Positions 33,989 to 47,884 of a DNA stretch of 48,178 nt are shown piece by piece; the first letter of the stretch is position 1; the number at the start of each line of letters is the position of its first letter. This DNA comes from a virus. The stretch lies in the IMG/VR virus record IMGVR_UViG_3300028033_000002, positions 1 through 48,178 of that record; one strand, given 5' to 3'. The position numbers and the translations under genes were made by a program. Below the pieces are notes generated by a model. That model saw only the letters and a program-made list of their open reading frames with translations. It made no database searches and had not been told where the DNA came from.

Positions 33989-34012
33989 GTTCAACTCCCG
34001 CCATCTCCACCA
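33989..34012 (+). repeat. attR of element 1 and attL of element 2 (ssrA end copy)
   Basis: A 24-bp exact copy of the ssrA 3' end at 103-126. A second integrase begins 180 bp downstream, so this copy is the shared junction of tandem elements. Confidence 0.9.
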
Positions 34013-34124: not shown

Positions 34125-34185
34125 GGGATACATGCCATGTATCCTAGCGTGTATCCCCTCATATTTATTGAACTGGCAGGGATAC
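34125..34185 (+). promoter_or_regulatory. Probable arm-type sites of the element 2 integrase (GGGATAC)
   Basis: GGGATAC occurs at 34125-34131 and 34179-34185 and inverted at 34139-34144 (GTATCC) and 34151-34157 (GTATCCC). The cluster lies between att and the int start and differs from the GTTATAC set of element 1, so each integrase seems to have its own arm code. Confidence 0.58.
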
Positions 34186-34191
34186 AAAAAA

Positions 34192-35421
34192 ATGAAACGA
34201 ACAGACATAAAACGCAGACCACTAGCAGACACCGTACTTGCAACCCTTGAGCCTGAATCAAAAGAATATCGGGAGCCAGACGGCAACGGCTTATATTTTC
34301 GTGTCAAACCTGATGGGAATAAATCGTGGCAACTACGATATAAAAAAGCTGATGGTAAATGGTCATGGTTAGGTATCGGTGGCTATCCTGAAATATCAGG
34401 ACAGTTAGCACGTAAAAAAGCGCAAGAACTTTTAAACGACATTTCAAAAGGTGATAACCCTATCATCACCAAACAAGAACGTAAGCGCAAAGAAATAGAA
34501 CAGCACAGTGCAACCTTTGAAGTTTTAGCACGTGAATGGTTAGACACAAAAAAGGAATCATGGGTACAGGAAACCATGACCCGAAATAAAGGCGCACTGG
34601 AAAAACATATATTTCCGATTTTCGGGAAACGCTTGTACACCACCATAAAGCCTATTGAATGGATGAACTTGTTAAAAAGTATTCAGCAAGAGAAAGGTAT
34701 TTTTGAGCAAGTGAACCGTATGCGCTCGATGTGTCGTGACATTTACGATTTTGCAAAGGTCACTGGACGTATGGACTACAACCCAGTTGAGGGCATTCAA
34801 AAATACTTACAGCAAGGCAAGAAGCAAAACATGCTGCATGTGAGCGAACTTGAGTTACCCCCACTGTTAAGAGCTATCAATAATTATCCGACTATGGATG
34901 TACGTATAGGCTTGCAACTTTTAGCTATGTTGTTTTGCCGACCAACTGAACTAAGACAAGCCAAGTGGCAAGAATTTGATTTAGAGCAAGGCTTATGGAA
35001 TATCCCAGCCGAGCGCATGAAGAAACGCCGTGAGCATCTTGTACCGTTGCCAACTCAAGCCACTACCCTATTAAAAGAATTGCAAAGCTATGAAACCAAT
35101 TCTGAATACTTATTTCCGAGCAGATCGGACAAGAGCAAGCCAAAGTCAGACACAGTTTTCATTATGGCTTTGCGCCGTATGGGTTATGAGGGCAGACAAA
35201 CCCCACACGGATTTAGACATATTGCGAGTACCTTGTTAAACAATCGTGGCTTTGATGAACGTCATATCGAGGCAGCACTGGCACACGTTAAAGATGGCGT
35301 GGCAGGTGTATATAACAAGGCTCAATATTTAGATGACAGAGCAAGCATGATGCAATGGTACGCCAATCATTTAGAAGAAGTTGCAGACCAGAGCATTATT
35401 CAATTCAAAAAAGCACAGTGA
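34192..35421 (+). CDS. int: P4-type tyrosine integrase of element 2
   Basis: A 409-aa integrase with an N-terminal DUF4102-like domain (YREPDGNGLYFRVKPDGNKSW), a core-binding domain and a catalytic domain with R250 (LFCRPTELR), H339 and R342 (HGFR), H365 (LAHV) and Y374 (VYNKAQY). It differs clearly from the element 1 integrase but uses the same ssrA end. The start at 34192 is chosen; the open frame from 34132 crosses the GGGATAC repeats. Confidence 0.93.
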   Translation: MKRTDIKRRPLADTVLATLEPESKEYREPDGNGLYFRVKPDGNKSWQLRYKKADGKWSWLGIGGYPEISGQLARKKAQELLNDISKGDNPIITKQERKRKEIEQHSATFEVLAREWLDTKKESWVQETMTRNKGALEKHIFPIFGKRLYTTIKPIEWMNLLKSIQQEKGIFEQVNRMRSMCRDIYDFAKVTGRMDYNPVEGIQKYLQQGKKQNMLHVSELELPPLLRAINNYPTMDVRIGLQLLAMLFCRPTELRQAKWQEFDLEQGLWNIPAERMKKRREHLVPLPTQATTLLKELQSYETNSEYLFPSRSDKSKPKSDTVFIMALRRMGYEGRQTPHGFRHIASTLLNNRGFDERHIEAALAHVKDGVAGVYNKAQYLDDRASMMQWYANHLEEVADQSIIQFKKAQ

Positions 35422-35487: not shown

Positions 35488-35549
35488 GCTAAGTCTAGGT
35501 TAGCTCCCGAAAGTCGGACACCCAATCCGATTGGCTTAGCAGCTTTTTT
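35488..35549 (+). ncRNA. Cloverleaf-like structured RNA with terminator
   Basis: GCTAAG (35488-35493) pairs with CTTAGC (35535-35540), enclosing two hairpins: CCGA-AAG-TCGG (35507-35517) and CCAAT-CCG-ATTGG (35522-35534). Six T follow at 35544-35549. It lies in the leader of the next gene, between int and the early genes. It could be a small RNA or an attenuator, by analogy with the P4 immunity RNA, but no sequence identity to that RNA is claimed. Confidence 0.5.
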
Positions 35550-35574
35550 GGGGATGCTGTGGGAGGCAATTACT

Positions 35575-36644: not shown

Positions 36645-36860
36645 ATGAGTGAAAACCATCAAACCCAAGTTTTGGCACATCTTAAAAATGGCAAGACGCT
36701 TTCACAGGCCGAGGCTATTCATCATTTTGATTGCTACCGCCTAAGCGCCGTCATTCAGCGTTTACGCAATGCTGGGTATGACATCGTGACACACAGCGAA
36801 CCCAACGTTAAAGGCAAAGGTCGCCATGCGCGCTACGAACTTAAAGAGGTGGCAGCATGA
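36645..36860 (+). CDS. Winged-helix/HTH_39-type protein
   Basis: A 71-aa protein with HTH pattern QVLAHLKNGKTLSQAEAIHHFDCYRLSAVIQRLRNAGYDI followed by a basic segment. It resembles the small HTH_39-type proteins in phages. It overlaps the next gene by 4 bp. Probable DNA-binding regulator. Confidence 0.75.
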   Translation: MSENHQTQVLAHLKNGKTLSQAEAIHHFDCYRLSAVIQRLRNAGYDIVTHSEPNVKGKGRHARYELKEVAA

Positions 36861-37363
36861 AACCAGCAATATTTAGTTTCAATGAACACGGTGTTCGGAT
36901 TGTCCTAGATGACAGTAAAGAACCATGGTTTTGTTTAACAGATGTTTATAAATCTTTAGACATAAGCCGTACATCACGACTATTTCGTGAATTAGATGCA
37001 AAGGGTGTGGCGGATTGCCACATCCTTACAAATGGCGGTACTCAAAAGCTCAAGTTTATTAATGAGCCCAATCTTTATCGCATCATTTTCCGATCCACTA
37101 AACCCGAAGCAATTAATTTCCAAAACTGGGTGTTTGCCGAAGTACTACCTTCGATACGAAAGACAGGCTCATATTCAGCTCGTCGGGCAGCTTATGAGGA
37201 ATTAAACCGCCTGTATATGCAGGAAAAGGTATCTAAAGACAAAGCCACATTTCACAGTTTAGGTATGCACCGTCGTAAACATGAAAAGCATTTAAACGCG
37301 GTCCGCATTCAAACATGCAAAACCAATTTACAGCTAACTTTTGAAGGGGTATGCAATGAATAA
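36857..37363 (+). CDS. BRO-N domain antirepressor-like protein
   Basis: A 168-aa protein with an N-terminal BRO-N domain: VRIVLDDSKEPWFCLTDVYKSLDISRTSRLFREL, KFINEPNLYRIIFRSTKPEAINFQNWVFAEVLPSIRKTGSY. The C-terminal region is basic. BRO-N proteins act as antirepressors or regulators in phages and satellites; here it may sense or disturb helper repressor control. Confidence 0.85.
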   Translation: MKPAIFSFNEHGVRIVLDDSKEPWFCLTDVYKSLDISRTSRLFRELDAKGVADCHILTNGGTQKLKFINEPNLYRIIFRSTKPEAINFQNWVFAEVLPSIRKTGSYSARRAAYEELNRLYMQEKVSKDKATFHSLGMHRRKHEKHLNAVRIQTCKTNLQLTFEGVCNE

Positions 37364-37733: not shown

Positions 37734-38048
37734 ATGAAAAATAAATCGTTCAATATTGCCAACATGCCTAAGTATGGTTATAGTTCAATTGCTTTGAGCA
37801 AAATCTCAAAGTTAGCTTTGGTCGGCTATGAATATCTAGCGCATACAGTCCGCTTAATGGACTTTTTTTGTATGCGTAATATCTCTATGCATTCGCATTT
37901 TATGGCGAAGCTGGAGGGGGACACTTTCGAGTGTGCCAGTTACCTAGATTACTGGTCGACCAACCCCTTTCAGCTTTGCCACCATAATTACTTGGTCGTA
38001 ATTGGCAGAGCTTCTAAATTAAATCTAGGAGCGCATTCTCATGCCTAA
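37734..38048 (+). CDS. Hypothetical Cys/His-containing protein (104 aa)
   Basis: A 104-aa protein with scattered Cys and His (FFCMRN; QLCHHNYLVV), no clear zinc-finger spacing and a partly hydrophobic middle. No family recognised. Small odd-composition proteins at this place in P4-like satellites are sometimes Ash-like, but I cannot confirm that. It overlaps the next small gene by 8 bp. Confidence 0.48.
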   Translation: MKNKSFNIANMPKYGYSSIALSKISKLALVGYEYLAHTVRLMDFFCMRNISMHSHFMAKLEGDTFECASYLDYWSTNPFQLCHHNYLVVIGRASKLNLGAHSHA

Positions 38049-38169
38049 TCAAAATAAAAAAACCGTTTCACTTGTTCATCATCTTGCTGAGAAGCGTCAC
38101 AACCAACATGCAAAGTTAGCGGAAAGCTACACTAAAAAATTTAATTCGGTAACAGGGGGTGGAGCATGA
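38041..38169 (+). CDS. Small basic protein (42 aa)
   Basis: A short frame MPNQNKKTVSLVHHLAEKRH to GGGA with TAGGAG upstream and a 4-bp ATGA overlap with the DUF3987 gene. It is basic and helical and probably co-translated with the replication protein. Function unknown. Confidence 0.55.
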   Translation: MPNQNKKTVSLVHHLAEKRHNQHAKLAESYTKKFNSVTGGGA

Positions 38170-40298
38170 ATGCTAAAATCCCTTGTGATAAAACTGCAAT
38201 TGCTTTAGCGGTCAGCACCGATCCAGTGACAGGCAACACAACCGAATATCATTCGATTGAAGATTTTGCAAAAGGCTGTATCGATGAGCAGAATTTTAAA
38301 GTGAAGCCTGAGAGCTATATTTATTCTGAATTGCCAGATTATAACTGCGAAGAATGTGAAGCACTCCCTCTAGTCAATCCTCAGCAATTGACTGAAGTCG
38401 TCGGGTATGGAATCAGAGGCATAGCTAAAAAGTACGATACTAGCCAGACACCATGTAAAGAAATCGATTCTAAAAAAATATCATTCTCTATTGGTAAAGC
38501 TGGAATATTCGCAAGCAACACAAATAATAAATATATGCCGTATGTTCTAGGTACAGACAATATAGATTTATTTGTGCAACTTGCTAAGGCTGGAGAGGCC
38601 GTTGTGCTTCATAAAGATATTGATGCAGCGTATCAGATTATAAACAATGGTATGCCTGAAACAATATTTAGAATGATGGTCGGTGAGAAACCACCAGTCA
38701 ATAATGCTGATTTATTTGTTCAGGTGAATGATAGCTTTAAAACACTTCCACCAAATCAGATAAAGCAATTTTTCCTTGATAAAAAACAGCAGATCATAAA
38801 ATCAATCGAATCTGACCTAATCGCACAGCCTCAAGTTGAGGAGATGCCAGTGGATCGGAGAGCTGAAAAGCTGGATAACTGGCAAGCTCCAATAAGCCTG
38901 AGAAATGACACTCTCATTCAATCAAAACCTTATCCTATTGATGAGCTACCGGAAGTCGTGAGGAATGCAATTCTTGCAACCGCTGAATATGTGCAAGCTC
39001 CAATTGCAATGGCTGCTCAATGTGTTTTAGCCAGTATTTCATTTTTAGCACAAGGTAAGGTTAATGCACCCAAAGAAACCAACAGGGAGGGTATGCCAGC
39101 CTCCTTATTCTTTTTAACGGAAGGCGGTAGCGGTGGGCGTAAATCATCATGTCAAAAGTTGGTTGAATTGCCTATTAGAGAGCATGAGCGACAGCAGTAT
39201 GAGGAATACAGAAAAAATTTAGAGGATTGGAATGCGAGATCAAAAACAGTTGAATCCAAAGAGTTCGCGCAGTGGGCTTTAGATAATCCAAGACCAACCG
39301 ATCCGACCAGTATTTTCTCCGACATTACTATTGAAACCTTGACCAAGTTTTATATTAAAGGAATTGTGAAAAATGCTTCATTGAGTAGCGATGAGGCTGG
39401 ACAGTTCTTTGATGGTCACACAATGAAGGGCGACACGGCCAAAAGTGCGTTAGGTGCATTTACCAAACTATTTGATGATGGCTATTGTCAGAGAAACCGC
39501 GCTTCATCTGATGACAACGGAACGGCCTATGATGTTCGCCTAACCTTCAACCTACTTGGGCAACGTGCTGTATTGGCTGGAGCTTTAAACGATCCGACAT
39601 TAAGGGGACAGGGCTTTTTGCCTAGATTCATTTTAACCGCTCCAGAAAGCATTGCTGGGCAGCGGACGCATACAGTTGAATTTAGACAAAAGCTAAAAAA
39701 CTCACACAATGACCCCCGATTAACTAAATTTTGGAATCGTTGTAGAGATATTTTAAAAGATGAGCTACCGGTTCTTTTGAATGAATCGGGAGAAGTTCCG
39801 TACTTTCCAGTGATGCAGCTATCCAGTGAAGCCGAGTTGCTGGAGCTTGATTTCTACAATGAGTGTGAGATTTTGCAGGGTAGCGGAAAACAGTTTGAAT
39901 TTATGCAGCCTTTTGCCAGTCGTGCAAATGAGCTTGCCAGACGTTTAGGAACTGTCCTGGCTTACTTTGAAAACAAGTCTGAAATTGATTCTGAAATCAT
40001 GCAGGCAGCTTGCGCTGTTATTAGACATTCTTTGTCAGAGTGGTTCCGATATTCAGATATTGAAGTAGCCGATGAAAGCGATTCTGAGAAGCTGATTAAG
40101 TACCTTTTAACTAAATGTAAAAAGGAAAAAACCGACCGACTGCAAAAAACGATAGCAATGAAGGGGGCGCCACTTCAGATGAGAAAATCAAAGGAATTTG
40201 ATCCTTGTCTAAATGAGCTGATCGAGTTCAATTATGTGCGACTGGTGACAATTAACCGCTCCACTTACATTGAATTAAATCCAGCATTGCTGAAATAG
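38166..40298 (+). CDS. DUF3987 replication protein (primase/helicase-like)
   Basis: A 710-aa protein. The N-terminal 200 residues resemble accessory primase-type regions, and the DUF3987 domain starts near 255 (YPIDELPEVVRNAILATAEYVQ). A P-loop-like EGGSGGRKSS follows, then LSSDEAG as a Walker B-like motif and NLLGQRAVL. DUF3987 proteins are standard replication genes of satellites and islands. It ends one base before an iteron cluster, so it probably initiates replication there. Confidence 0.85.
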   Translation: MNAKIPCDKTAIALAVSTDPVTGNTTEYHSIEDFAKGCIDEQNFKVKPESYIYSELPDYNCEECEALPLVNPQQLTEVVGYGIRGIAKKYDTSQTPCKEIDSKKISFSIGKAGIFASNTNNKYMPYVLGTDNIDLFVQLAKAGEAVVLHKDIDAAYQIINNGMPETIFRMMVGEKPPVNNADLFVQVNDSFKTLPPNQIKQFFLDKKQQIIKSIESDLIAQPQVEEMPVDRRAEKLDNWQAPISLRNDTLIQSKPYPIDELPEVVRNAILATAEYVQAPIAMAAQCVLASISFLAQGKVNAPKETNREGMPASLFFLTEGGSGGRKSSCQKLVELPIREHERQQYEEYRKNLEDWNARSKTVESKEFAQWALDNPRPTDPTSIFSDITIETLTKFYIKGIVKNASLSSDEAGQFFDGHTMKGDTAKSALGAFTKLFDDGYCQRNRASSDDNGTAYDVRLTFNLLGQRAVLAGALNDPTLRGQGFLPRFILTAPESIAGQRTHTVEFRQKLKNSHNDPRLTKFWNRCRDILKDELPVLLNESGEVPYFPVMQLSSEAELLELDFYNECEILQGSGKQFEFMQPFASRANELARRLGTVLAYFENKSEIDSEIMQAACAVIRHSLSEWFRYSDIEVADESDSEKLIKYLLTKCKKEKTDRLQKTIAMKGAPLQMRKSKEFDPCLNELIEFNYVRLVTINRSTYIELNPALLK

Positions 40299-40527: not shown

Positions 40528-41100
40528 ATGGCAGATTTAAAACAGTGTCACAGTGATGAGTCAGACAAGTTCATCGTTAGGTTTGACGATAATATTAAGA
40601 AAGCGTTAGAGCTTCTCTTTAGAGCCAGATTGCACCAGTGTTTTATATATATGGGCCCACTTGATGAATTGTGCTGGGATGGAGAAGGTACGCTTCCAAA
40701 TGAATTTTTAGATGAGGTGGCAGATCATAGCGCTGCATTGGTTGAATACTTCCAGTACACAGATAGATATATAGGCCACTTCTTTACTCGAGCGTTTGAC
40801 GGGTATCTGTATTGTCTTAATCAGATGCAAAAATCCCTTGATGCTGTCAGTGCATTGTCCTGCTATGTTCCGGTCCTGTATTGGCGCTCTACCATTAAGA
40901 CGGCGCTACAGCTCAGTGATGCGGAGTTAAACATTATCCAAGGGATGTTAATTCACTATGAGCTCATCAAGTACCTGGATGACTCAAACACACTTCTAAC
41001 CACCTCAGAGCAAGAGCTAATTAACCACTCAATGAATGAGGACGCATGTGCTGACTTGAACTTTTTGCTGACCAAGCCTAGACAGTTTGTTTATTGCTAA
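40528..41100 (+). CDS. Hypothetical protein (190 aa)
   Basis: An acidic helical protein (ELLFRARLHQCFIYMGPLDELCWD; SDAELNIIQGMLIHYELIKYL). No family recognised. It lies between the iteron cluster and SSB, so a role in satellite replication is possible but only by position. Confidence 0.6.
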   Translation: MADLKQCHSDESDKFIVRFDDNIKKALELLFRARLHQCFIYMGPLDELCWDGEGTLPNEFLDEVADHSAALVEYFQYTDRYIGHFFTRAFDGYLYCLNQMQKSLDAVSALSCYVPVLYWRSTIKTALQLSDAELNIIQGMLIHYELIKYLDDSNTLLTTSEQELINHSMNEDACADLNFLLTKPRQFVYC

Positions 41101-41133: not shown

Positions 41134-41460
41134 ATGGCTAACTTAAATAGAGTGACAGTGATGGGTGTATTAGGACGTGACCCTGAAACTAAGCAATTCT
41201 CCAACGGTGGCACCGTTACGACATTCAGCGTTGCAACTACTGAGTTTTGGAAGGACAAGACCACTGGCGAGCGTAAACAGCTCACAGAATGGCATAGAAT
41301 CACTGCTAGCAATAAGTTGGGGGAGATTGCCCAGAAGTACCTCAAAAAAGGTGGCAAGGTGTATGTAGAGGGTAGCTTGCGAACAAGGAAATGGAAAGAC
41401 CAAAGCGGCAATGAAAAGGAAGTGACAGAGATTAAGGCCGATGTACTGCAATTGCTATAA
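41134..41460 (+). CDS. ssb: Single-stranded DNA-binding protein, short form
   Basis: A 108-aa OB-fold SSB: NRVTVMGVLGRDPETKQFSNG, VTTFSVATTEFWKDK, TEWHRITASNKLGEIAQKYLKKG, KVYVEGSLRTRKW. The usual flexible linker and acidic DDDIPF-type C-terminal tip are missing; the protein ends ADVLQLL. Such tail-less SSBs occur in phages and plasmids and would not recruit host partners through the tip. Confidence 0.93.
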   Translation: MANLNRVTVMGVLGRDPETKQFSNGGTVTTFSVATTEFWKDKTTGERKQLTEWHRITASNKLGEIAQKYLKKGGKVYVEGSLRTRKWKDQSGNEKEVTEIKADVLQLL

Positions 41461-41492: not shown

Positions 41493-41562
41493 ATGATTAC
41501 CACATAATAAATCAATCAAACTTATGTGTTATAAATTTGGTTATTTTAATAAGGGGGTAATT

Positions 41563-42180
41563 ATGAAAAAAATAGCTTTGACTTGGTTAATCTCATTGGT
41601 GTGTGGTGGTGCCTATGCTGCAGATTGGGTCGCCATTGGGAACGGTCAAGATGGATATGCTTATTATGTTGATTTTGACTATTACAAATATGATAAGAAA
41701 ACTAATGCGGCTGATATGTGGTTTAAAAAAGAAAGGGCGAATGGATCCACATACTTCACACAAAAAAAATCATTATCTAGATTCTACTGTGACAGCAAAA
41801 CTTACAGAACATTATCCGCAATAACATACTTAGCATCAGGGGATGTCGAAAATACTTATAGAGACAATTATCTAATCCCAGCAGAAACTGTATTTCCAGA
41901 TACAACCGGTGAACTTTTATGGGATGTTGCATGTGGAACGCCTGCAAAAGGCTTGGATTTTAAGTATGCGAATTTAGAAGATTTTAGTGACTATCAAGAA
42001 TATCAGAGAGCATCTTATGCATACTTGAGAATGAAGCCTAAGCCAAATATTGAATTTTTCGGTCAATTAACACCTCATGTAAAAATAGAGAATTACCGTA
42101 ATTATGATGACTATCTTAAAGACGTGAAAACAGAACTAGATAAACTGAGAGAACAAAATATTATCAAAAATTATAAATGA
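41563..42180 (+). CDS. Secreted Adhesin-E-like protein
   Basis: A 205-aa protein with a clear signal peptide (KKIALTWLISLVCGGAYA, cleavage near AYA-AD). The mature part follows the surface-adhesin protein E pattern: DWVAIGNGQDGYAYYVDFDYY, MWFKKE, LSRFYCDSKTYRTLSAITYL and a late VAC. Two Cys (in FYC and VAC) could pair. It has GGGGG before the ATG at 41563 and its own terminator, so it looks like an independently expressed cargo gene that alters the envelope of the lysogen. Confidence 0.72.
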   Translation: MKKIALTWLISLVCGGAYAADWVAIGNGQDGYAYYVDFDYYKYDKKTNAADMWFKKERANGSTYFTQKKSLSRFYCDSKTYRTLSAITYLASGDVENTYRDNYLIPAETVFPDTTGELLWDVACGTPAKGLDFKYANLEDFSDYQEYQRASYAYLRMKPKPNIEFFGQLTPHVKIENYRNYDDYLKDVKTELDKLREQNIIKNYK

Positions 42181-42181
42181 G

Positions 42182-42201
42182 CCACCTTCGGGTGGTTTTT
42201 T
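42182..42201 (+). terminator. Terminator (CCACC-TTCG-GGTGG) after the Adhesin-E-like gene
   Basis: A hairpin with a TTCG loop followed by six T, identical in stem-loop to the terminator at 7325-7348 of element 1. Confidence 0.88.
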
Positions 42202-42210
42202 AATACTAGC

Positions 42211-43120
42211 GAGATGTGCTCAAAACTGAGCGCAATTTTTCGCCGTGTGAGCGAACGCAATTTTGCGCTGGCTAGATGTCACCAAATTTGGGGGTATCTA
42301 TTTTACGAGAAAGTCGTAAAACAATACCCCTGCTCAATTTTGAGCAAGCTCATTTGCATGTGACTGCACGCGAATATCATTTACGCTCCACTAATTTTCA
42401 AGAGCGCAATTTTACGCAGTCACCATTTTTGGTGGTCGGTAGCGGATTTCCGCTATCGGTATCAGTACAGGAATTCCTGTATCGGTAGAGTGTCTCCAAT
42501 TTTGGATATACCCCTGTCCAAATCTGGACACCCTCCCCAACTTTGGGGAAGCATCTACCCCAATGGGGGATATGAGCAAACTTGCTCGCATTTCAAAAGT
42601 GACCAAGTGTTTTTCACCTAGAAACCTGCTCCATTTTTTTGTGGAAGCAGATAAAACCAAAATCGACCAAGTTAATTCAGGATTTCAAATCCCAAATTTT
42701 TGGGAACTGAGTTACTCAAAGTCACTCAGTCCAACTTTATGCAATGCGTGGAGTTGGGAATATCCTCAACTTGAGGACATTGAAGTTTTACCGATACCCA
42801 AAATCTGGGTTTCGGTAATTTCTGAAAAGCATATTCACACTGTGTGGGTCTACGAAAGTTTCGTAGTTAAGACTTTTACCCCAGTGAGGTAGAACGAAGT
42901 TTTTCGCTGAAGTGGGCCCATCCACCATTGGTGGTTGGATCGTGCGAATTACTTATCCTCAAATTAAGGAGAACTACACTTTTTGTGTAGTGGGTTTTCA
43001 TGCTTCCAGGAGGGTATCCGAAATATTTCCGATACCTAGCTCCTAAATTTTTAGGAACTAGCTAGTTCAAATAAAGATAGTCAGTCACCGATGACGGCGC
43101 AAAATTGCGTCATCATCGAT
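42211..43120. other. Dense array of diverse palindromes/hairpins (about 900 bp)
   Basis: This gene-free block between two convergent genes contains more than twenty different short dyads. Examples: 42218-42231 (GCTCA/TGAGC), 42256-42267, 42282-42291, 42331-42346, 42440-42455, 42466-42481 (perfect 16-bp), 42515-42530, 42534-42549, 42574-42587, 42690-42705, 42763-42777, 42788-42818, 42850-42866, 42922-42934, 42973-42991, 43013-43036, 43041-43056 and 43055-43068 (perfect 14-bp). Some are nested: GGGGTAT/ATACCCC (42291-42330) encloses TTTTACGA/TCGTAAAA. GTGACTGC (42360-42367) pairs with GCAGTCAC (42416-42423). Most stem sequences differ, but centres are usually A-tract then T-tract (CAANNTTG-like). 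No array-wide T-run or long convincing ORF is present. Confidence 0.85.
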
Positions 43121-43127
43121 ATAAAAC

Positions 43128-43517
43128 TCAGTTAGGTAATTCGTTTGGCTCATCATCTTCAAATATGATTTTAAATGCCGGCTGCACATTGGCACTAATA
43201 TCCATCTTCTGCTTATCAGAATACCCATGATTGGCCAGCATCAGCTTAACAATGGTGCTGTTCATTGAACTACCTAAGCCGCCGTCAATCAGCATCATCT
43301 CCTGCTTCATCTTGATAGCGTCTAACGTGTCCGAGAAATCTTCATCCTTTCCTGCCCATTCATACAGACTAGAACGTGATGCACCAAGATAACATCCGAG
43401 TCCTGCAACGCTTGGAACGGTATTACCAACGTCCTCAAAGCCTTTGATTAAGTATTCTTTGGCCTTAGCAATAACTTCATCTGTTAAATTCGTGGGTCTG
43501 CCCAACTCTTTTTTCAT
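43128..43517 (-). CDS. terS: Satellite small terminase subunit
   Basis: A 129-aa protein resembling the gp3-type small terminase subunits: ELGRPTNLTDEVIAKAKEYL, then VAGLGCYLGASRSSLYEWAGKDEDFSDTL (HTH), a helical core (STIVKLMLANHGYSDKQKM) and a C-terminal tail AFKIIFEDDEP. No TerL is visible beside it, which suggests it recruits another phage's TerL to satellite DNA. The tail resembles that of the element 1 TerS. The ATG at 43517 is preferred over a GTG at 43526. It is the last gene of a leftward operon. Confidence 0.83.
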   Translation of the reverse strand: MKKELGRPTNLTDEVIAKAKEYLIKGFEDVGNTVPSVAGLGCYLGASRSSLYEWAGKDEDFSDTLDAIKMKQEMMLIDGGLGSSMNSTIVKLMLANHGYSDKQKMDISANVQPAFKIIFEDDEPNELPN

Positions 43518-43595
43518 AATTTCCACCCTGACTCAAAGCTGAATATTTTCAACATGAGAGGCCAAGCACTCGCCTAAACCTCCCATCGCCAATAA

Positions 43596-45608
43596 TTATC
43601 GAGAGGCCTGATTAGCCGCACCGACCACCGCCAACTTTTGCGCCTGCATCAGTAGATTGGCCATCTGTGGTGAGTTCGGTGGCACATCCTTGGCAGCAAG
43701 TAATATTCGCTTCCCTGCATCAGTAGTAAACAACATCTTAGCAATGGCAGAAACACCAGCACCGTGAGCGGCTAGGGTAGGGTTCACACCAGCACCCAGA
43801 CCGAAAGCAATACCAACTAATCTATTCCCTGTTGGTGGGTTTTCAGCGTACTGACCAGCTCTCTCAACATGGCGCATGAGCTTAACGAAGCCATCCATCT
43901 GAGCCTTATCGCCACCAGTAAAGATATTGTTATACGGCGCTTTCATCCGCTCAAATTCTTGAGCAAACTTGGCTGGACTGAATACCTCCTTGTTTGGGTC
44001 CCATGCTTTACCAAAGGCATTCTCAGCCATCTGATAGCGCAATGCTGCTTGTCCTTTTGGATCTAGGTTCTTGTAGAAGTTTGCAGCCTTGTCACCTTTC
44101 CCAGCTTTCATGAATTGTTCAAAAACCTGATCTGGTTCAGCACTACGCAGAGCTTTAGCAAATGCTTTGTCTTTTCCATCCTGGAGCTGCTTATACAGTG
44201 CGTTAGCTCTCTTTAGCTCCCCTAGTAGCTTGCTGTTTCCAGAGCTTTGAGCAAAGTCAAGAATATCACTATCGGTTGCTGTCTTAACCTTAGTAAAAGC
44301 GCTTGAGCCTTTTTTCCCAGCAATACCCCACTCATGAGCTAATTCACTAAGGCGCGATTGTGTTGCTCGCATTTCCTTGAAATTATTTCTAATATTTGGA
44401 TCGGTAAGGTTTTTACGAATACTAAGAAGCTCTTTTTGCAACTCTTTATTGGGAATGACTTTTGAATCGTTCGCAATAATGTCATCAATCTTTTGAACCG
44501 TCTTGTTTGGAGCTATAGCGCCGTCACCAGCCAAGTTCTGCACTCGATCATACATCTGTGATGTAACACGCTTACCACGCCAGTTTTTAATCTCTGCTGC
44601 GGCTTGTAGTATCTTTCCAGTATCGTCACCAGCGCCATTAACCACCTTCATGATTCGAGCCGCATTTTCATCGCCTGCATTGGCTGCTGCTTGAATCTTT
44701 GGAATGGCCTTGTAGTCCACATCATCCAACTTGGTTTTAAGGCCATCAAGGACCTTTGTGGCTGCATCCTTAACCTGTGCCTGCTGGGTCTGTCTGAACT
44801 TGGATGTGCCAACAAACGGGATGGACTCCATAACAACTTCAGATTTTTGTATCAGTTGATTTTTACCAATATCGCCCACCGTGGTCTTAACATTAAATTG
44901 CTTCCCTAGATCGTCAATTTCCCGAGCGCCTGGCACCATGCGACCTTGCTTGATATTGACCGCCTTAGTGATGCCATCGCCGACTTTCTTAGCAACTACA
45001 CCACCGACTGCACCACCGACTGCACCAGCCTGAACGTTCTTTTTACGCTGCTCAGCGTTCTCAGCAAAACCAACACCACCAATAGCACCACCAACCGCAG
45101 CGTTTTGGGCTGTGATAGCCAGTCCGGGTTTAGATAAAATTTTTGCAGCACCATATCCCTTTCCAAGTGCAGCTAGAGGCAGTGTGGCCACAGTTTCCCC
45201 GATAAACTCACCAACATTCGCCCCCTTGCCGCTATCTTTTCGGGCTTCGTTGTAAGTTTTGCGCTCATCAGCTTTGTATTTGGTGTAGCGCTCATAGCGA
45301 TCTGTTTCAAGGTTAGTTCCGAGTAGCTTGTTTAAGCCCCCTCGAATACCATCAGCGGCATATTCAGCACCTTGAGCAACACCGCTATAAACCTTATCCA
45401 TACCTGAGCCAATATCAGCAATAAGGGACGGTTTTTCTGCCTCAACCTTGATTGCTGGTAGTGCACCTAGATTCTTGGGTTTTTTGGCTGACTTGGCCAG
45501 CTCAACCATCTCATCTATTGATAGTGTTTTTTGTGTGGCTTGTGGTGGTGGGGTTTTGGCTTTTTTGGCAAGCTGGACCATTTGATCTATTGTTAATTGA
45601 CTTGTCAT
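43596..45608 (-). CDS. gp16-like DNA ejection protein of element 2
   Basis: A 670-aa protein. The N-terminus has two copies of a short amphipathic motif (LTIDQMVQLAKKAK and LSIDEMVELAKSAK). A Gly/Ala-rich hydrophobic region (about 140-215; GGAIGGVGFAENA, AGAVGGAVGGVVAKK) may insert into membranes. The rest is helical, with a second hydrophobic patch near 600. This composition is that of P22 gp16-type ejection proteins. It lies directly downstream of a lysozyme gene, as if the prophage's fused lysozyme-gp16 protein were split in two here. Confidence 0.75.
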   Translation of the reverse strand: MTSQLTIDQMVQLAKKAKTPPPQATQKTLSIDEMVELAKSAKKPKNLGALPAIKVEAEKPSLIADIGSGMDKVYSGVAQGAEYAADGIRGGLNKLLGTNLETDRYERYTKYKADERKTYNEARKDSGKGANVGEFIGETVATLPLAALGKGYGAAKILSKPGLAITAQNAAVGGAIGGVGFAENAEQRKKNVQAGAVGGAVGGVVAKKVGDGITKAVNIKQGRMVPGAREIDDLGKQFNVKTTVGDIGKNQLIQKSEVVMESIPFVGTSKFRQTQQAQVKDAATKVLDGLKTKLDDVDYKAIPKIQAAANAGDENAARIMKVVNGAGDDTGKILQAAAEIKNWRGKRVTSQMYDRVQNLAGDGAIAPNKTVQKIDDIIANDSKVIPNKELQKELLSIRKNLTDPNIRNNFKEMRATQSRLSELAHEWGIAGKKGSSAFTKVKTATDSDILDFAQSSGNSKLLGELKRANALYKQLQDGKDKAFAKALRSAEPDQVFEQFMKAGKGDKAANFYKNLDPKGQAALRYQMAENAFGKAWDPNKEVFSPAKFAQEFERMKAPYNNIFTGGDKAQMDGFVKLMRHVERAGQYAENPPTGNRLVGIAFGLGAGVNPTLAAHGAGVSAIAKMLFTTDAGKRILLAAKDVPPNSPQMANLLMQAQKLAVVGAANQASR

Positions 45609-45615
45609 GTCCTAT

Positions 45616-46365
45616 CTACCCTTTAGCTAATTGAGGTAAAACCTTGGCTATCTGGTCTGCATTTAAAAAACGGTTTGGCTGTTGTTGCTGGCTTGGTTGT
45701 AACTGCTGGCTTGGTTGTAACTGCTGGCTTGGCTGTGGCTGTAACTGTGGCTGCTGTCCAAGTTGAGGGAGCACCTCAGCAATACGGTCTTGAGATAAGA
45801 AACGGTTTGGCTGTGATGGCTGCTTAGAAAGCTGCGGCAGAACTTTAGCTACTTGTTCTTGAGATAAGAAGCGGCTTGGCTTTTGTGGCGCTTGAGTAGG
45901 CGTCTTAATATTTCCGCCTAAGAATTTATTTACATCATTCCAGGAGCGTTTTCCTTGCTTGTATTGGGAGCTTGGGAGTGACGCCCATGTACCACCTGAT
46001 TTACCGATAGCAGTCTGGTAATCACCCTTCAGGATATAAGGCAGCGAACCATTTTGAGCCAAGAGAGCAACTGCGGCTAAGTCTTGGTTTTGCGGTGAGA
46101 AGTCTTTAAATCCATACTGGCGAGATAATCCATCCCATGTGCCTTTTAAAAATTGATAGCGGCCTGCTGCTGTCGTTACATTCATTTTTCCATCAGTCTG
46201 CTTAAACTGCTTTCTGACGTTGGGGTGTGCTGAGAGGTTGCTTAGGCGCTCGTTACCAAAAATGGTGTTATAGCCATGTTTCACACCCTCAGTGTATGCA
46301 ATCAGATCGAGCATTTTTCTAACATTGGGGTCTGAAGCATACCTTTGTAATTGAGCTAAGTTCAT
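45616..46365 (-). CDS. Lambda-R-type lysozyme with C-terminal repeats
   Basis: A 249-aa protein. Residues 15-155 match the lambda endolysin (GH104) pattern: LDLIAYTEGVKHGYN with catalytic E26, TAAGRYQFLKGTWDGLSRQYGFKDFSPQNQD and GTWASLPSSQYKQG. The C-terminus has three copies of RFLSQEQVAKVLPQL-type motifs separated by Gln/Pro-rich spacers. The repeats and position between ejection genes suggest a virion-borne lysozyme rather than a lysis endolysin. GGGAGAG precedes the ATG. Confidence 0.8.
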   Translation of the reverse strand: MNLAQLQRYASDPNVRKMLDLIAYTEGVKHGYNTIFGNERLSNLSAHPNVRKQFKQTDGKMNVTTAAGRYQFLKGTWDGLSRQYGFKDFSPQNQDLAAVALLAQNGSLPYILKGDYQTAIGKSGGTWASLPSSQYKQGKRSWNDVNKFLGGNIKTPTQAPQKPSRFLSQEQVAKVLPQLSKQPSQPNRFLSQDRIAEVLPQLGQQPQLQPQPSQQLQPSQQLQPSQQQQPNRFLNADQIAKVLPQLAKG

Positions 46366-46404
46366 ATTCTCTCCCTAGGGGACGGCGTAAGTTTGGAATT
46401 AATA

Positions 46405-46431
46405 TCCACCACACATTTGTTGCATGGTGGA
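46405..46431 (-). other. Intercistronic hairpin in the ejection operon
   Basis: TCCACCA (46405-46411) pairs with TGGTGGA (46425-46431) around a 13-nt loop, between the gp20-like and lysozyme genes. No T-run, so it is probably an RNA stability or processing element rather than a terminator. Confidence 0.5.
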
Positions 46432-46447
46432 CGGTCTGATCTACTAC

Positions 46448-47884
46448 TTACTTAATCCGAACCCCTTGCTCTCTCAGGATTTTAACCATCTCCTCAGTGC
46501 TGATATTGGCTTGTTTGGCAGCCTGCTTAACTTCGCTTAACGTCACAGTGGCACCACTCACATTGCTGCTGGAAGTGGCTCTTTTGATCTGCTCCTGTCC
46601 TTGTGCACCAGCTCCGCTAATAATCATATTCATTGCTAATTCACGGTTTTTAGCTTTTTGAGCAATAACCTCATCAGAATCACCGATCTGAGGGAAGTAT
46701 TGCTTTTGTGCATTCTCAAACTCTGAGTCAGCGATTACAGCACCAGATTCTTTACGCAGTACGGCGTTAATGAAGTCCCGTTGCGCTTGAACGTATTTCT
46801 GCTGTTCAACACTTGCACCGCCTAAGATGCTCGGTAAAGCATTTGAGACTTTGGCACCAACACCATATGGAACAATGCTATTTATGACAGGCGCCTTAAT
46901 ATCTTTAGCTTCCAGCTCTGTCAGGATTTTATGAGATTCCTGCATTCGAGCACCAAATAAAGCATCCTTACTTTGCTGCTCAGTCATTCCACCTGATCCA
47001 CCTTTAGCTTGTGCTTTAAGTGGCTGGCCGTCCCCTAGCAATAATGGCTCAACCTTTCCAGCATTAGGACCAGACTTGTATACAGCATAAGTAACGCCGT
47101 CAGAGCCTTGGACTGTTTCAAACTCTCCATTTTCTCGCGCTACTTTTTGCGCTTGTACGATCTTATCGTGCTCAAGCCGCTGTAGTTGCACAGCACGGTT
47201 TTTGTCAGCTGTAGCTGCTGTTTGATTAATGCCATGAATCTGAGCATTAACAGAGTTCTGGTTATTCTCCCGTGAAGTCTTGTTATTCAGAACTGTATTC
47301 TGATCCGCTTGGATGTACTTCATTGCATTTTCTTCACCAGAAAGAATAATTCCCTGCACGTACTGTTTCAGCTCTTGAGGTTTGGTGCTCAGTGATTTGA
47401 TTTGCTGACTGTATTGCTCATAGAGTTCTGGTGTAATTGAGCCTGCTTTGTATGCGTTGTTAAGTGCCAGTGTCGCAGCGTTTGCATCACCTGTTTGGGC
47501 TGCAACCATAAGCGCACGGTCAGCGTTCTTAAGAAGGTCTACAGAGTTTTTAAGGCTGGCTCCTTTTGTTTCAGTGCCAATCTTTTCTGTTTCAGCTTGG
47601 GTTTTAGCAAGATCAACATTGAATTTGAGCTGATCATTGGCTGCTTTGGCTGCTGCTGCTTGATCAAGTCTTAATTGTTCGTTTAGCTTGGTTGAGAACA
47701 ATGATTTATTGGCGAATGCCTGTTGTTCTTCTGGAGTCTTGAGTTGTCGCATCTGGTTAATTCTGCGACCTAAAACCAGTTGGCCTAGATTTCCGCCAAG
47801 CTGTTGCAACTGCTGCATATTGCGCTGCTGTATCTCCAATCCCTGTGCAACGCCGTCTGTAATAATCCTTGGATCAAGTGCCAT
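46448..47884 (-). CDS. gp20-like DNA ejection protein of element 2
   Basis: A 478-aa Gln/Ala-rich helical protein of the phage DNA transfer class. The C-terminal segment YVQAQRDFINAVLRKESGAVIADSEF followed by QKQYFPQIGDSDEVIAQK is a hallmark of virion ejection proteins. The end (ISTEEMVKILREQGVRIK) resembles the end of the prophage gp20-like protein. It is the first gene of the leftward operon, with AGAGG before the ATG. Confidence 0.78.
   Translation of the reverse strand: MALDPRIITDGVAQGLEIQQRNMQQLQQLGGNLGQLVLGRRINQMRQLKTPEEQQAFANKSLFSTKLNEQLRLDQAAAAKAANDQLKFNVDLAKTQAETEKIGTETKGASLKNSVDLLKNADRALMVAAQTGDANAATLALNNAYKAGSITPELYEQYSQQIKSLSTKPQELKQYVQGIILSGEENAMKYIQADQNTVLNNKTSRENNQNSVNAQIHGINQTAATADKNRAVQLQRLEHDKIVQAQKVARENGEFETVQGSDGVTYAVYKSGPNAGKVEPLLLGDGQPLKAQAKGGSGGMTEQQSKDALFGARMQESHKILTELEAKDIKAPVINSIVPYGVGAKVSNALPSILGGASVEQQKYVQAQRDFINAVLRKESGAVIADSEFENAQKQYFPQIGDSDEVIAQKAKNRELAMNMIISGAGAQGQEQIKRATSSSNVSGATVTLSEVKQAAKQANISTEEMVKILREQGVRIK

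Follow-up and report, generated by a model that had tools for sequence, protein, structure and literature searches.

Two elements at one ssrA site

We analysed a 48,178-base stretch of viral DNA, IMG/VR record IMGVR_UViG_3300028033_000002 (hereafter the window; a linear record and probably a fragment), in which a leftward operon near the right end encodes putative DNA-ejection proteins and a small terminase subunit (TerS). The window starts with the 3' end of a tmRNA gene (ssrA; positions 1-126). As copies of the last 24 bp of this gene occur at both 103 and 33989, the window holds two tandem elements in the same attachment (att) site, the second of which carries the operon. The att copies and the genes of the operon are as follows.

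103-126, no strand: left att, the last 24 bp of ssrA (GTTCAACTCCCGCCATCTCCACCA); left end of the adjacent P22-like prophage and exact repeat of 33989-34012
33989-34012, no strand: att copy between the prophage and the putative satellite, an exact 24-bp repeat; left end of the satellite
43128-43526, minus strand: TerS of the P22 gp3 type (132 aa), with a body like Obolenskvirus TerS and a C-terminal tail like Acinetobacter P22-like TerS
43596-45608, minus strand: gp16-like ejection protein (670 aa), of which the C-terminal two thirds are the satellite-conserved part
45616-46365, minus strand: lambda-type lysozyme, probably virion-borne (249 aa; lambda lysozyme 1am7, E = 1e-21)
46448-47884, minus strand: gp20-like ejection protein (478 aa), assigned by position and by homology to gp20 of Acinetobacter P22-like prophages

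The first element, which ends at 34012, looks like a complete P22-like prophage and encodes TerS, TerL, portal, scaffold, coat, gp10, gp7, a gp20-like protein, a lysozyme-bearing protein and a tail protein. This full head and packaging operon is absent from the visible part of the second element, which begins at 33989. Its plus strand encodes an integrase, regulators, a DUF3987 primase/helicase, a 190-aa protein and SSB, and the ejection operon faces them from the minus strand. We could see 14.2 kb of this element, whose right end lies beyond the contig. Homologous islands start at the point that matches 33989, and one of them (L065) starts at a tmRNA gene. The chromosomal context is Acinetobacter-like: the DUF3987 region is 92.5% identical in nucleotides to one Acinetobacter island (L056), and the integrase region is 82% identical to another (L076). 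Near-identity searches of Escherichia coli genomes and phages with the window DNA gave no match.

An initial annotation of this DNA had described a leftward gp20-like, lysozyme, gp16-like and terS operon. Four intact minus-strand open reading frames (ORFs) indeed occupy 43128-47884. TerS matched Pfam GP3_package (E = 1.4e-25) and the PHROG terminase small subunit. The gp16-like protein matched a PHROG DNA ejection protein (1.5e-5), and its residues 256-659 matched gp16 of P22-like phages (E about 1e-8, tblastn). We argue that the lysozyme is a virion enzyme, because its homologues lie directly upstream of gp16 in about 10 prophages and are naturally fused to gp16 in two Moraxellaceae P22-like prophages (L025:9029-11641 and L103:9579-12791). 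The gp20-like protein, which matched no named family, fills the gp20 slot in about 10 Acinetobacter P22-like prophages with the order gp7-gp20-lysozyme-gp16, and an L022 protein links it to the PHROG 2534 protein of the adjacent prophage; this position and these linking homologues suggest its identity, the least certain of the four. In its homology to gp16 and gp20 and in its gene order, the operon agrees with the ejection proteins of P22. A search of solved structures gave no match for gp16 or gp7.

Complete relatives and the distribution of ejection genes

Profiles for TerL, portal, coat, scaffold and gp10 detected none of these in the visible second element or in any relative that we examined, and the same profiles detected three control phages (gp10 lay outside the fetched part of one). 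This bears out the earlier observation that TerL, portal, coat and scaffold are not visible. As the right end of the element lies off the contig, it is the relatives that must decide whether it is a satellite.

The closest complete relative, in Acinetobacter bouvetii SFB21 (L003), spans 13.85 kb between 17-bp repeats at tRNA-Ser(GGA). Its DUF3987 protein is 92% identical to that of the window (83% nucleotide identity over the DUF3987 and SSB genes), the order of SSB and a 170-aa counterpart of the 190-aa gene is kept, and gp16 and gp7 converge on these genes. A second integrase lies directly past its right repeat, which raises the possibility of stacked islands at this site as well. The G323 island (L099/L100) measures 19.9 kb from one ssrA repeat to the other, and its DUF3987 gene has gp20, lysozyme and gp16 as neighbours. 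The Psychrobacter plasmid pA52P5 (closed circle, 13,177 bp) encodes RepM, an integrase, antiterminator Q, gp16 and DUF3987; it has a chromosomal sister with gp16 in the G292 island (L101), whose ends were not resolved. In a second Psychrobacter plasmid, pA17P3 (closed circle, 17,680 bp), the C-terminal part of gp16 is of the other type, and for this reason we read it as a probable independent acquisition.

Like phage-inducible chromosomal islands (PICIs), L003 and L099 are att-flanked, fall within about 10-20 kb and have their own integrase; the window element shows the left att site and an integrase, its right end being off the contig, and its DUF3987 and SSB genes provide a replication module of its own. 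Capsid genes of its own, as found in capsid-forming PICIs (cf-PICIs), were not detected by profile in its visible part. Because complete relatives with the same replication module or ejection-gene type are bounded by att repeats or are circular, and have no head genes, we conclude from gene content that the second element is a satellite, as first suggested, and not a prophage, with a reservation for its unread right end.

A relative has been mobilised experimentally. EcCIMP1 of E. coli MP1 circularises only with the podovirus helper Kapi1, which transduces it and whose titres it does not lower (PMC11773190). Its authors describe some of its genes as similar to DNA transfer and DUF2824 proteins and treat them as packaging candidates; in the parts of that report available to us, no ejectosome role is proposed and the ejection genes are not tested (PMC11773190). 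Annotation and Pfam identify in EcCIMP1 (L110) a gp14-gp7-gp20-gp16 cassette consisting of DUF2824 (gp14), P22_gp7 (PF25688), the P22 injectosome translocase gp20 (PF16928) and, in the gp16 slot, a 906-aa transglycosylase-domain protein. Ejection genes thus occur in a satellite whose transfer has been demonstrated. Identity to the Kapi1 counterparts falls from 83% in gp14 and 57% in gp7 to 26% in gp20 and 24% in gp16. Of 5426 E. coli genomes, 69 contain the EcCIMP1 gp16 gene at a coverage of at least 80%; matches of any extent occur in 73, 71 of them at 99% identity or more. In our literature search no paper described, as a mechanism, satellites that provide ejection proteins; EcCIMP1 was the nearest case.

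The initial annotation had called a near-complete ejection module in a satellite unusual. The window element is not unique in this: predicted ejection genes occur in at least seven elements of two bacterial families, including the mobilised EcCIMP1. Among the elements seen, gp16 is the constant member, although most were found by a gp16 search that would miss elements without it, and gp20, lysozyme, gp7, gp14 and TerS vary. Three Moraxellaceae satellites (pA52P5, L101 and pA17P3) have gp16 alone and L003 lacks gp20, while gp20 and gp16 occur together in the window element, L099 and EcCIMP1; gp7 was found by profile in L003 and EcCIMP1. The window element is the sole one seen with TerS in addition to gp20, lysozyme and gp16. 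DUF3987 relatives occur in 33 of 175 Acinetobacter genomes and, in maps of those islands, ejection genes were recognised in A. bouvetii only, which makes the cassette an optional module. Plasmid pA37P2 (L137, 10,345 bp), which has the pA52P5-like set of RepM, integrase, antiterminator Q and DUF3987 but no gp16, likewise makes gp16 look optional. In viral_contigs, neither single proteins nor the DUF3987 alignment found a match; a scan with the gp16 alignment gave 23 loci, mostly recognisable P22-like phages.

Read by eye, five satellites encode hydrophobic, probably membrane-anchored proteins beside gp16 (L099:14330-15355, L101:12123-12821, L002:7215-7673, L136:8315-8815 and L003:11806-12666), and the L099 protein resembles a gp16 N-terminal motif. 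We regard these membrane-type genes as candidate superinfection-exclusion factors.

Helper matching and the proposed mechanism

The gp16 of the window element falls into two parts. Its identity to gp16 of the A. bouvetii satellite is 41% in the N-terminal part and jumps, near window residue 200, to 84% in the C-terminal part, although the two satellites differ in integrase and att site. The two C-terminal parts form a clade (support 1.0) and are under purifying selection (dS, synonymous divergence, 0.72; dN, nonsynonymous divergence, 0.10). Conversely, the A. bouvetii satellite and prophage L018 share 90% identity in gp7 and 65% in the gp16 N-terminal part but only 20% in the C-terminal part. 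A conserved C-terminal part behind a divergent N-terminal part points to adaptation to the helper. Decay of the operon into a prophage remnant is disfavoured, since its reading frames are intact and the gp16 C-terminal part has a dN of about 0.1 for a dS of about 0.7.

TerS also appears composite. Residues 4-113 are 61% identical to the TerS of an Obolenskvirus, where the gene adjoins that phage's TerL, and relatives occur in Obolenskvirus (myophage) and APSE phages. The tail (AFKIIFEDDEPNELPN) resembles those of the TerS of prophage L106 (NLKVVFEDEGEASTK) and of the adjacent prophage TerS (SLKVVFENDGETSTE). When the last 30 residues were scored against 2883 ORF tails, L106 ranked first and the adjacent prophage fourth (after the query itself), with L108 34th; the Obolenskvirus TerS tail showed no such preference, ranking the L106 and adjacent-prophage tails above 1000. 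Kapi1 TerS shares no tail with satellite TerS, and among the 175 Acinetobacter genomes neither PF16677 (above cut-off) nor satellite TerS as query found a match. The combination of a myophage-like body and a P22-like tail is a supporting hint of helper adaptation.

The adjacent prophage had been put forward as having exactly this kind of virion and as the possible helper. Its gp16, lysozyme and gp20 are only 13-21% identical to those of the satellite, so its ejection module is of another kind, and as a source of the cassette it is ruled out. Two points keep it a possible helper. Its TerS tail fits, and its head type pairs naturally with satellite-type lysozyme and gp16: three IMG/VR phages (L114, L115 and L127) combine coat, gp10 and gp7 of the adjacent-prophage type with satellite-type lysozyme and gp16, indicating that cassettes move between head types.

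Taken together, these data make it probable, in our judgement, that the second element is a satellite of P22-like podophages that loads its own ejectosome into helper capsids. A PICI-like element with integrase, regulator, DUF3987 primase and SSB would parasitise such phages; upon helper induction it would excise and replicate with its own primase. Its TerS would send the helper TerL to satellite DNA, the body recognising the DNA and the helper-type tail, to judge by its resemblance, docking on TerL. The head would come from the helper's portal, coat and scaffold, and satellite gp20, lysozyme and gp16 would replace or mix with the helper's ejection proteins, so that DNA might be injected through a satellite conduit. 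Such loading is plausible because P22 takes foreign ejection proteins: prophages with gp7, gp16 and gp20 genes from distant relatives give essentially normal yields of infectious particles, provided that gp16 and gp20 are a matching pair (PMC10883804). As mutants that escape the superinfection-exclusion (Sie) protein SieA alter the C-terminal regions of gp16 and gp20 (PMC10883804), the benefit may, speculatively, be entry into helper lysogens that shut out ejection proteins of the helper type; it is from such cells that the satellite could later be mobilised. A change of host range, proposed in the initial annotation, is one possibility, but evasion of superinfection exclusion fits P22 biology better (PMC10883804). 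A wider claim, which we advance only tentatively and think rather doubtful, is that this is a general trait of satellites of short-tailed phages, each of which would equip the capsid taken from its helper with an ejectosome of its own. The parts that face the head or take part in assembly (gp14, gp7, the gp16 N-terminal part and the TerS tail) would stay matched to the helper, and the part that faces the envelope (the gp16 C-terminal part and gp20) would be swapped, giving entry into helper-carrying cells that exclude ejection proteins of the helper type.

Several points weigh against the proposal for the window element. Its right end is cut, so the absence of head genes from the window is by itself no proof; gp7 was not seen in its visible part; and TerS, seen in this element only, was not found in L003, pA52P5, pA17P3, L099, L101 or EcCIMP1. 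The match of the TerS tail is a hint and not more, since it covers few residues and was scored only after it had caught our eye. We identified no Sie-type protein in a candidate helper, and the adjacent prophage is a possible, not a proven, helper. A foreign ejection set is also no sure way round exclusion, as SieA still blocked three of the four tried in P22 (PMC10883804). Nor can a full replacement ejectosome be general, because in several relatives gp16 is the sole ejection gene, and P22 gp16 does not work unless it is matched to gp20. Packaging, transfer and incorporation into particles are all inferred from genes.

The occurrence of gp16 alone also suits an alternative that we consider unlikely, in which the satellite's ejection proteins make helper virions less infectious or non-infectious, limiting the helper and protecting the host population, with DNA delivery secondary. 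Foreign gp16 alone enters P22 particles, yet these are non-infectious, and particles with Sf6 gp16 and P22 gp20 assemble with the same outcome (PMC10883804); a mismatched gp16 from pA52P5, L101, pA17P3 or the gp20-less L003 could spoil helper particles in this way. However, the window element, L099 and EcCIMP1 carry the gp20-gp16 pair needed for function, the undiminished Kapi1 titres in the presence of EcCIMP1 (PMC11773190) speak against such sabotage, and a spoiled particle would fail the satellite too unless satellite particles differ.

Less probable still is that the operon is a prophage fragment caught by recombination in a DUF3987-primase island, with no role in the satellite life cycle. 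Most Acinetobacter DUF3987 islands do lack a match to these ejection genes, pA37P2 does without gp16, and the set varies among elements; but the frames are open in seven elements of two bacterial families and under purifying selection, the C-terminal parts of gp16 stay 84% identical across satellites with different integrases and att sites, gp16 is retained in every element and portal, coat and TerL in none, and a near-identical EcCIMP1 gp16 persists in 69 E. coli genomes. We consider it very improbable that the element is an ordinary prophage cut by the contig end, with TerL, portal and coat past 48178: the right att site does lie outside the window, but in P22-like phages gp20 is preceded, within the same operon, by gp7, gp10, coat, portal and TerL, whereas here about 290 bp upstream of gp20 contain no ORF of at least 80 aa, the window TerS lies at the other end of the operon, unlike in phages, and the replication genes match those of the complete headless A. 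bouvetii element.

Remaining genes and comparison with known satellites

The remaining features of the satellite, all on the plus strand, are as follows.

34132-35421, plus strand: tyrosine integrase (Pfam Phage_integrase, 3e-25), the segment that is 82% identical to L076 in nucleotides
35488-35553, plus strand: int-alpA RNA (Rfam RF02996, 39.2 bits)
36857-37363, plus strand: BRO-N antirepressor-like regulator (Pfam Bro-N, 5e-21)
37898-37986, plus strand: C4 antisense RNA of the P1/P4 immunity type (Rfam RF01695, 73.5 bits)
38166-40298, plus strand: DUF3987 primase/helicase, replication module (Pfam DUF3987, 2e-46; 92% amino-acid identity to the A. bouvetii satellite)
40528-41100, plus strand: 190-aa satellite-specific protein, 49% identical to the 170-aa protein at the same place in the A. 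bouvetii satellite
41134-41460, plus strand: SSB (Pfam SSB, 2e-33)
41524-42180, plus strand: Adhesin_E-like secreted protein (Pfam, 3e-9), with homologues within the ejection cassettes of phages L017 and L113

The int-alpA RNA lies beside the window integrase and L003 encodes an excisionase/AlpA-like protein; no window protein was assigned as AlpA. DNA at the C4 antisense RNA site is conserved in many Acinetobacter DUF3987 islands. The Adhesin_E-like gene adjoins the satellite cassette, and the phage copies lie at L017:11963-12502 and L113:8812. The 900 bp between the SSB/Adhesin_E-like genes and TerS (42201-43100) contain 11 perfect hairpins with stems of at least 6, compared with 1.4 in shuffles; only about 100 bp separate the facing gene sets in the A. 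bouvetii element.

Among its relatives, the window element resembles A. bouvetii L003 in its DUF3987 protein, SSB, 170/190-aa gene, gp16 C-terminal part and convergent layout, and differs from it in att site and integrase and in having gp20, lysozyme and TerS in place of gp7. The elements pA52P5, pA17P3, L099 and L101 are likewise headless, with integrase, primase and gp16 (L099 also has gp20 and lysozyme), but they have RepM plasmid replication or other integrases and no TerS was found in them; antiterminator Q is present in pA52P5, pA17P3 and L101. EcCIMP1 is similar in size (20 kb) and is also a satellite of a P22-like podovirus with integrase, primase and ejection cassette and without TerL, portal or coat; it differs in its TOPRIM/DUF927 primase, its tRNA-Thr site, its lack of TerS and the low identity of its proteins to the Moraxellaceae genes. 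Acinetobacter P22-like prophages (L016, L018 and L024) and IMG/VR phages (L113-L118) have homologous gp20-lysozyme-gp16 cassettes, but these come with portal, coat and other virion genes, and their gp16 C-terminal parts are at most about 61% identical to that of the satellite.

Classical PICIs contribute TerS and capsid-size factors but no ejection proteins, and cf-PICIs supply the capsid and borrow tails. As in cf-PICIs, part of the virion would be supplied by the window satellite, which differs in that the head would be borrowed and the injection proteins supplied. With P4-like satellites it shares the C4 antisense RNA. In Staphylococcus aureus pathogenicity islands (SaPIs) and other PICIs, a satellite TerS redirects helper packaging, as we infer for the window element; capsid redirection has been reviewed (PMC6893505). 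If our proposal is correct, it would explain the EcCIMP1 genes left as unexplained packaging candidates, and the pattern, seen in two bacterial families, is testable with E. coli MP1, Kapi1 and EcCIMP1, since that satellite has already been shown to transfer. Known satellite piracy acts on head size, on the choice of DNA or by supplying whole capsids; a supplied injection conduit would be a further control point, deciding which cells accept the particle.

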